Source: Patescibacteria group bacterium (GTDB taxonomy: Bacteria > Patescibacteriota > Minisyncoccia > HO2-45-28). Taken from it: a stretch of DNA of 37,788 nucleotides. Below, one piece after another: positions 209-11,491 of this stretch; positions within the stretch are counted from its first letter, which is position 1; every line of letters begins with the position of its first letter. A program made the position numbers and the translations under genes. A model generated the notes under the pieces. The model searched no databases. It worked only from the letters and a program-made list of their open reading frames with translations, and was not told the origin of the DNA. The stretch spans positions 1-37,788 of the forward strand of contig JADFMT010000005.1 in NCBI GenBank assembly GCA_022563755.1, in the 5' to 3' direction.

Positions 209-221
209 GTGTATAATTATA
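209..221 (+). promoter_or_regulatory. -10 promoter element, near-leaderless
   Basis: GTGTATAATTATA contains a consensus TATAAT at 212-217, only seven bases before the microprotein ATG, with no Shine-Dalgarno sequence between. The same block recurs at 9272-9284 before the third copy. No good -35 was identified. Confidence 0.6.
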
Positions 222-224
222 TTT

Positions 225-344
225 ATGGCAAAACGAAGTACAGGAGTAGGAAAGAGAAAGAAGTCGCGTTCAAAAAAGACCAAAAAACGGCTTGCGATAA
301 AGCATGAAATGTTGGCAAAGCGGGCCAGCAAAAGACGCAAATAA
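225..344 (+). CDS. Very basic 39-aa microprotein, copy 1 of 3
   Basis: The frame encodes MAKRSTGVGK followed by a Lys/Arg/Ser-rich tail ending KASKRRK-like (here RASKRRK). It is too short for the ORF track. Two close paralogues lie at 3012-3131 and 9355-9471. DNA identity runs through long stretches, including synonymous sites, which indicates recent duplication or gene conversion. More than half the residues are K, R or S, there is no membrane segment and no cysteine, so binding to RNA, DNA or ribosome is the natural guess. I do not recognise the family. It resembles short basic ribosomal proteins only in composition. Confidence 0.7.
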   Translation: MAKRSTGVGKRKKSRSKKTKKRLAIKHEMLAKRASKRRK

Positions 345-3011: not shown

Positions 3012-3131
3012 ATGGCAAAAAGAAAAACAGGAGTGGGGAAGATGAAGAAGTCGCGTTCAAAAAAGACCAAAAAACGGCTTGCGATAAAGCGTGAGATGTT
3101 GGCAAGAAAGGCCAGCAAACGGCGCAAGTAG
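3012..3131 (+). CDS. Very basic 39-aa microprotein, copy 2 of 3
   Basis: This copy encodes MAKRKTGVGKMKKSRS and ends KASKRRK. It differs from copy 1 by a few substitutions and has its own upstream sequence with TAAGAT as a possible -10. Identity with copy 3 runs past the stop codon (TAGATCTATTT in both), so the duplicated unit is larger than the reading frame. It sits between TypA and the sugar dehydrogenase. Proximity to a ribosomal GTPase gene would suit a ribosome-linked role, but the other two copies lack such neighbours. Confidence 0.7.
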   Translation: MAKRKTGVGKMKKSRSKKTKKRLAIKREMLARKASKRRK

Positions 3132-9173: not shown

Positions 9174-9271
9174 ATTACATAAATAATAGCAGTTATAAGA
9201 TTTCTCTTACAGTTTTCGAAGTTGTATTTGGCGTTTTCTGTTCTGAACTTGTCCAGTTTGGGGAGCAAATA

Positions 9272-9284
9272 GTGTATAATTATA
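9272..9284 (+). promoter_or_regulatory. -10 promoter element of microprotein copy 3
   Basis: GTGTATAATTATA is identical to 209-221 upstream of copy 1, with GGGGAG(C/T)AAATA before it in both. TATAAT occupies 9275-9280. Here it is separated from the ATG by an inserted hairpin. Confidence 0.6.
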
Positions 9285-9351
9285 ATTGGCAACGAGGACG
9301 ATTGAAAATTTATTTTCAGTTCGTCCGAGCGAACCAATTATACGAAGTATA
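9285..9351. mobile_element. Palindromic insertion between promoter and gene (about 67 nt)
   Basis: Arms beginning ATAATTGG (9282) and ending CCAATTAT (9341) fold into an imperfect hairpin of about 28 bp per arm with the inner stem GGACGA..TGAAAAT/ATTTTCA..TCGTCC. Copy 1 of the same gene has the identical flanks, GTGTATAATTATA on the left and T-T/C-T-ATGGCAAAACG on the right, with nothing between. The comparison defines an insertion of about 67 bases, with boundary uncertainty of a few bases because of the shared TATA. Confidence 0.75.
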
Positions 9352-9354
9352 TCT

Positions 9355-9471
9355 ATGGCAAAACGAAGTACAGGAGTAGGGAAGAAGAAGTCGCGTTCAA
9401 GAAAGACCAAAAAACGGCTTGCGATAAAGCGTGAAATGTTGGCAAGAAAGGCCAGCAAACGGCGCAAGTAG
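9355..9471 (+). CDS. Very basic 38-aa microprotein, copy 3 of 3
   Basis: The product starts MAKRSTGVGKKKSRSRK and ends KASKRRK. The ORF track starts it at 9286, but the extra 23 codons are translation of the inserted hairpin. The ATG at 9355 aligns with the starts of copies 1 and 2. It carries a one-codon deletion relative to the others. Whether the insertion silences it or simply gives a longer leader is unknown. It runs convergently with nothing and precedes the ATP-grasp gene by about 200 bases. Confidence 0.7.
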   Translation: MAKRSTGVGKKKSRSRKTKKRLAIKREMLARKASKRRK

Positions 9472-11393: not shown

Positions 11394-11412
11394 TAATCTA
11401 ATCAAATCAGAG

Positions 11413-11488
11413 CTGTAAGAGAAACGAGTCGGGTTTTGTTCTTCAGTATTCTGTGTTTGAGCGTTTATTTAAATTATTTCTCTTACAG
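11413..11488 (+). promoter_or_regulatory. Structured 5' leader, possible cold-responsive RNA switch
   Basis: CTGTAAGAGAAA (11413-11424) is the exact reverse complement of TTTCTCTTACAG (11477-11488), which ends three bases before the start codon. Pairing closes a 52-nt loop and would bury the translation initiation region. No Shine-Dalgarno sequence is otherwise visible. Known cspA leaders are long and temperature-responsive; here the same idea is inferred from structure and position. Confidence 0.6.
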
Positions 11489-11491
11489 TAC

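Follow-up and report, generated by a model that had tools for sequence, protein, structure and literature searches.

The DNA analysed here is a stretch of 37,788 nt from a Patescibacteria group bacterium, referred to as the window, in which a Lys/Arg-rich microprotein of 38-39 amino acids, without a match in Pfam, is encoded three times within 9 kb (ATG at 225, 3012 and 9355). The third copy carries a hairpin ahead of its start codon that is missing from the otherwise similar first copy. The question is whether this hairpin is a mobile element that was inserted at copy 3, a regulatory leader, or the remnant of an arrangement that copy 1 has lost. The question has some general interest, because the Patescibacteria have very small genomes and, to our knowledge, few mobile elements have been described from them. 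An earlier note on this DNA had read the hairpin as a palindromic element that entered the junction between promoter and gene, and this view is supported by copies found elsewhere and by independent pairs of filled and empty sites. The hairpin very probably belongs to a family of non-autonomous mobile palindromic elements of Patescibacteria, in the class of the host (Paceibacteria-like).

In the window, bases 9260-9284 ahead of copy 3 and bases 197-221 ahead of copy 1 are identical at 24 of 25 positions, both ending in TATAATTATA, and by direct comparison the start of the ORF is also alike in the two copies. Copy 1 reads GGGGAGTAAATAGTGTATAATTATA-TTT-ATGGCAAAACGAAGTACAGGAGTAGG, and copy 3 reads GGGGAGCAAATAGTGTATAATTATA-[ATTGGCAACGAGG...CGAACCAATTATACGAAGTATA]-TCT-ATGGCAAAACGAAGTACAGGAGTAGG, where the bracketed insert begins with ATTGGCAACGAGG and ends with CGAAGTATA (Table 1). 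The insert, put at about 67 bases in the earlier note, is exactly 67 bp long, and TATA is found on both sides of it, in agreement with the target-site duplication proposed there. That copies 1 and 3 share promoter and start region almost base for base is correct for the 25 bp and for the start of the ORF, so the immediate upstream regions are not independent; beyond the 25 bp, however, the two copies are unrelated. Since a search of the + strand upstream of copies 1 and 3 gave no sigma-70 -35/-10 pair, the 'promoter' at these copies denotes a match to TATAAT.

Table 1. Coordinates of the microprotein copies and of the parts of the insert in the window.
Feature	Position	Strand	Details
Microprotein copy 1, empty-site paralogue	225..344	+	39 aa
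Microprotein copy 2	3012..3131	+	39 aa; lacks the shared upstream segment and the element
Microprotein copy 3, 3' of the element	9355..9471	+	38 aa; Lys/Arg rich; no match in Pfam search
Upstream segment common to copies 1 and 3, contains TATAATTATA	9260..9284	+	direct comparison; BLAST segment C11:197-231
Insert, very probably a mobile palindromic element	9285..9351	+	67 bp including right-hand TATA; missing from copy 1; family by covariance model
Left TATA (T1), target sequence kept at left end	9281..9284	+	filled/empty comparison with copy 1
Right TATA (T3), apparent 4-bp target duplication	9348..9351	+	filled/empty pairs, including that with copy 1
Empty-site TATA of copy 1	218..221	+	direct comparison
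Hairpin 1	9281..9342	+	DNA and RNA folds; covariation over 86 sequences
Hairpin 1, outer stem TATAATTGG/CCAATTATA	9281-9289 with 9334-9342	+	folds, covariation
Hairpin 1, conserved internal loop CAACGA/GAGCGAA	9290-9295/9327-9333	+	folds, covariation
Hairpin 1, inner stem GGACGA/TCGTCC	9296-9301/9321-9326	+	folds, covariation
Hairpin 1, apical stem TGAAAAT/ATTTTCA	within 9281..9342	+	folds, covariation
Hairpin 2 (TATAC-GAA-GTATA), forming the right end	9339..9351	+	direct sequence; enriched across copies

The hairpin in the window is not a chance structure. Its folding energy corresponds to z = -3.3 as DNA and z = -3.7 as RNA, and none of 200 shuffled sequences folds as well. In an alignment of 86 sequences, 89% of the cells are paired and 20 of the 22 pairs show change on both sides; the number of doubly changed cells is 185, compared with 49.5 ± 8 in shuffles and 24-46 when the partner is slid. 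The alignment was fitted to a model that holds 10 of the 22 pairs, and the other 12 are therefore the cleaner test; these 12 pairs, in helices 2 to 5, also covary. Covariation backs a fold in which a 9-bp outer stem leads into a conserved, asymmetric loop (ARYGAG/CGARYGAA) and then into an inner stem that varies, followed by a further small hairpin ending in TATA. Its constant positions are the two sides of the internal loop, A-R-Y-G-A-G and C-G-A-R-Y-G-A-A, within which R-Y pairs and G.A mismatches stand opposite one another. The tandem G.A mismatches and the asymmetry of the loop show that it is a single strand whose folding is under selection.

The element is more than one hairpin, and its right end is a second, small hairpin of the form TATA-N-loop-N-TATA directly to the right of hairpin 1. 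A stem score of at least 6 is reached at this position in 100 of 129 unique copies, compared with 46.5 (maximum 56) in shuffles and with 36 of 128 in control windows 200 nt downstream. The arms of hairpin 2 vary among the copies with their complementarity kept, and they form, for example, 16 pairs in L085. The complete unit is about 65-150 bp long and comprises hairpin 1, with its strongly conserved fold, followed by hairpin 2, with TATA-like tetranucleotides as its bounds.

The hairpin is not confined to the window. BLAST of the host genome gave a second copy on contig C8 (C8:40221-40299, E = 1e-7, 77% identity), upstream of a gene that was named HU by eye from its sequence. The two host copies have ATAATTGGCARCGAGGA and CGAGCGAACCAATTATA in common, and their inner stems are different. 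The search for the arms that the earlier note had suggested is thus borne out as to the existence of copies and the keeping of the pairing, but not as to the letters GGACGA and TGAAAAT, which are not conserved between copies. A covariance model (R1) built from the two host copies only was then run on 384 genomes of the host class, and 43 of them match at E ≤ 1e-5, where about 0.004 false matches are expected; at E ≤ 0.1 per genome 82 match, of which about 38 may be false by expectation. All of the 80 loci fetched display TTATAATTGGCARYGAGG ... CCGARYGAACCAATTATA or covarying versions of it, and the feet of the stem, from inspection of 83 copies, are TTATAATTGG/CCAATTATA, the foot being TTATA. 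With the refined model (R2), the copy numbers are 43-44 in G156, 21 in G373, 16 in G205, 14 in G292 and two in the host. The match L010 in G003, which is in or next to coding sequence and does not have the fold, was discarded as due to chance.

The exact pattern was found in six stretches among 84,980 GTDB genomes, all in Patescibacteria (including Portnoybacteria, Tagabacteria and Niyogibacteria), and all named matches are likewise Patescibacteria. Carriage by a virus or plasmid was rejected, as the exact pattern has no match in IMG/VR and BLAST against plasmids and phages gave none. A known RNA family was also rejected: the Rfam scan of the window gave nothing at the gathering level, and that of 17 other loci gave tRNAs and weak matches, with no family overlapping the element. 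No description of the element was found in the open-access literature, subscription papers and preprints lying outside the search. These very small mobile hairpins, spread through many Patescibacteria genomes, thus form a family that had not been listed before.

Evidence of movement comes from four filled/empty comparisons beside the window pair, and TATA or (C)ATA is found at the joints of these four pairs and of the window pair. Within one genus, G121 has 71 nt ahead of the start codon of a conserved gene (its product begins MSEKSP) that G169 lacks, and the joint shows (C)ATA. Between paralogous copies of a long intergenic repeat in G205, the empty site (contig C109) reads GGAGTTATAATTTTACATAACTCACC, and the filled site (C74), which has the same 25-bp flank, reads GAG-TTATA-[ATTGG...GAATAA]-TATAATTTTACATAACTCACC. 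In a homologous LAGLIDADG-bearing (PF00961) intron-like region of G276 and G048, the empty version is CAAATTATAATATCAAGG and the filled one CAAATTATA-[ATTGG...CCCA]-TATAATACAAAG; judged by eye, and not from an Rfam match, this region appears to be an rRNA-type intron. In G143, a tRNA-Ile(TAT) fragment is split in its anticodon loop (GAGCTTATA...ATATCTCGG), compared with the intact neighbour GAGCTTATATCTCGG. In a further comparison, L057 with G294 and G305, the flanking genes are alike and the intergenic region is too diverged for an empty site to be read.

Near-identical copies also occur in unrelated flanks, which requires movement. G073 has five such copies (TTATAATTAC...GATATAAT), G373 has at least nine, and in G156 there is a 114-bp pair, the ends being constant in each case. 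Among the 129 unique copies TTATA is the most frequent T1. Insertion is precise at TTATA-like sites and leaves TATA on both sides, and among the sites are promoters, a tRNA gene and the intron that by eye is of rRNA type.

Some of the high-copy genomes contain additional repeats. In G205, elements are nested inside another repeat, which is palindromic, compound and present in high copy number (CCTCCTCTTAA..TTAAGAGGAGG ... ATAACTCACCC...CCCTCTCTTAA; e.g., L044 and L116-L129). In G373, loci L213-L222 have extra nested hairpins (CGCCGCTCTGCGGCG, TATCAAGAGG..CCTCTTGATA and CTCGCGGC..GCCGCGAG) in the right part of the element; in L220 these are missing except for CTCGCGGC..GCCGCGAG.

Small palindromic mobile repeats are already known as a kind, and include bcr1, Correia elements, REPINs and the Rickettsia palindromic elements (RPEs). 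RPEs are palindromic repeats inserted in many gene contexts in a reduced bacterial genome, and are known mainly from coding genes. Unlike them, the elements described here are almost all intergenic, and the likeness to RPEs is one of description and not of sequence. The nearest in outline is bcr1 (Bacillus cereus repeat, group A), also a short, multi-copy intergenic repeat with features of mobility. It has a short AT-rich target motif and a possible recombination-like mechanism with no known enzyme, and it is confined to the B. cereus group (PMC6542083). The role of its target motif is filled here by TTATA/TATA, and the two-hairpin unit of Patescibacteria is again compared with bcr1 by description, not by sequence. 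A resemblance of another sort is to the lactis-plasmid RNA (RF01742), which has the same internal-loop letters, CGAG...CGAGYGAA, between two stems. The likeness, at 9266-9371 of the window and centred on the loop CGAG/CGAGYGAA, is below threshold (28.6 bits compared with a gathering score of 70); the C8 copy and other members are unmatched, and the RNA is known from Lactobacillales, whereas the element is from Patescibacteria. The feet of the 83 copies inspected lack the core sites RYYYAAC ... GTTRRRY of integron attC.

As to how the elements move, we infer that the mover would be an enzyme supplied in trans that recognises a folded strand. Since the fold is that of one strand and the ends have no terminal inverted repeats, an enzyme that acts on a folded single strand (IS200/IS605-like or recombinase-like) is likelier than a classical DDE transposase. 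It is possible, though doubtful, that the family is of the IS200/IS605, REPIN or PATE type, with a HUH (Y1) transposase acting in trans, recognising hairpin 1 and cleaving at TTATA. Two subterminal hairpins, a strand-specific fold, a fixed short target at the left end and a lack of terminal inverted repeats are all found here, and Y1_Tnp genes (PF01797) are common in the class. REP/REPIN sequences with RAYT and IS200/IS605-derived palindromic elements are likewise dispersed intergenic hairpin units that are presumably moved in trans (PMC3116915, PMC3733652). Unlike them, the present elements have no GTAG or CGTC tag at the foot of the hairpin, and hairpin 1 is longer and has an internal loop. 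Moreover, the PF01797 search found no Y1_Tnp in two carrier genomes, the host and G039 (8 copies). The Y1 genes show no correlation with the copies of the element, and no element was found in the neighbourhood of 12 Y1 loci; on these grounds a Y1 transposase was rejected as the current mobiliser. The highest-copy genome, G156 (contigs C3, C7, C8, C10, C13 and C16), does display a strand bias, with the folding strand on the C-rich strand in 32 copies and not in 12 (p = 0.004, confounded with gene direction). Taken at face value, the direction of this bias is the reverse of what a folding strand serving as lagging-strand template would give.

A classical MITE, derived by deletion from a DDE insertion sequence (such as one of the TA-target IS630 type) and flanked by a TA or TATA duplication, is rather unlikely. 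Like MITEs such as Correia, the elements are short, non-coding and multi-copy, lie upstream of genes, have a TA-containing duplication and can add hairpins to transcripts (PMC10969869, a review of prokaryotic MITEs that does not mention Patescibacteria). They have TATA on both sides and matching empty sites, and a TA duplication of a TA-ended element is indistinguishable from a TATA duplication. However, they have no terminal inverted repeats past TATA, which is all that the ends TTATAATTAC and AAGATATAAT of the G073 element have in common, and the conserved feature is instead a one-strand fold with G.A mismatches, on which selection acts. No parental insertion sequence with these ends was found in 0.5 Mb of loci. 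The family lacks the terminal repeats of MITEs as well as the Y1 gene, in the two carriers above, and the tag of REPINs. An autonomous version with an ORF between the arms was also rejected, as none of the copies in the 0.5 Mb holds a long coding insert. The recurrent neighbouring ORFs are ftsH (at one orthologous locus), PilB-like, DnaA and others, with no transposase among them. That these searches gave no mobiliser weighs against the mobile-element reading, as does the strand bias of G156.

A further lead is given by copies with altered targets. In L025 and L056 the left end is TTACA in place of TTATA, and the middle segment is changed to match (TGTA); in L025, TTACA is found at both T1 and T3, with TGTA at T2. 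In G373 the target is TTATT. The L025 and G373 targets would fit a choice of target by pairing with T2, which we regard as a lead and not as a result. In its full form, this idea posits a mobile class specific to Patescibacteria in which the folded single strand picks its target by base pairing of the middle TATA (T2) with T1 or T3, with lineage-specific targets TTATA, TTACA and TTATT, and in which the hairpin loop of some units holds a complete tRNA-Ile gene that takes the place of the interrupted one; we consider it improbable. Whatever the mover, precise empty sites together with one-strand covariation make this a tractable system for asking what moves non-autonomous hairpins, and the same question stands for similar repeats such as bcr1. 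Dispersed through the genomes of Patescibacteria, and present dozens of times in some lineages, a hairpin element of 65-150 bp would be a main cause of change in their promoters and leaders.

The tRNA locus deserves separate treatment. Five copies from five families (L021, L033, L037, L058 and L092) occupy one orthologous place near ftsH, where the tRNA-Ile(TAT) gene is split in its anticodon loop CTTATAA and an intact tRNA-Ile(TAT) lies inside or beside the insertions. In L033 and L058, 20-bp inverted repeats flank the intact tRNA, within the D-loop of the split one. In G106 the acceptor, D, anticodon and T stems of the split tRNA-Ile are perfect around the insertion, and in G266 the intact tRNA is enclosed by a hairpin that bears the motif of the family. 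These five copies are not independent insertions. Against the mobile-element reading, the locus could reflect local function or old vertical inheritance and not fresh insertion; it may hold an insertion of long standing that is kept from being lost by the working tRNA within it, or it may be functional.

Nearly all of the 83 copies inspected are intergenic. Both flanking genes are co-directional with the element in 29, both are opposite in 24, and the arrangement is mixed in 20; overall, the orientation relative to genes is unbiased. In the host genome, as in G121, the element separates the start codon from a TATAAT-like sequence and probably lengthens the 5' leader. At copy 3, a transcript started at the TATAAT-like element would carry an added 5' hairpin leader about 65-70 nt long, and the hairpin may affect the expression of this copy. 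It is very unlikely, however, that the hairpin is a conserved cis-acting RNA (a structured 5' leader) of a regulon, and that its placement ahead of copy 3 and HU reflects regulation and not transposition. Both host copies are in the sense direction upstream of small basic proteins of nucleic-acid-binding type, and the strong covariation, the weak resemblance to the lactis-plasmid RNA and the five copies at a single orthologous tRNA locus would all be in keeping with such a leader. On the other hand, the neighbouring genes are diverse, copies also interrupt a tRNA and an intron or lie in terminator regions, and near-identical copies have unrelated flanks. A cis-regulatory leader was rejected as the main reading because of the unbiased orientation and the precise empty sites.

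That copy 1 once had the element and a deletion from one TATA repeat to the other removed it, rather than copy 3 having gained it, is also highly improbable: a 4-bp direct repeat permits precise slippage deletion, and gain and loss are not polarised by the window alone, but copy 2 also lacks the element, the family relatives G001-G003 have zero copies, and elsewhere identical elements lie in unrelated flanks, which needs gain.

The leader of the cold-shock-domain gene, at about 11410-11490 of the window, was also considered as a member of the family and was rejected, as it has a 13-bp stem but lacks the fold. This stem, CUGUAAGAGAAA...UUUCUCUUACAG, lies at 11412-11488, just upstream of the gene, and its right arm is partly repeated at 9193-9213.
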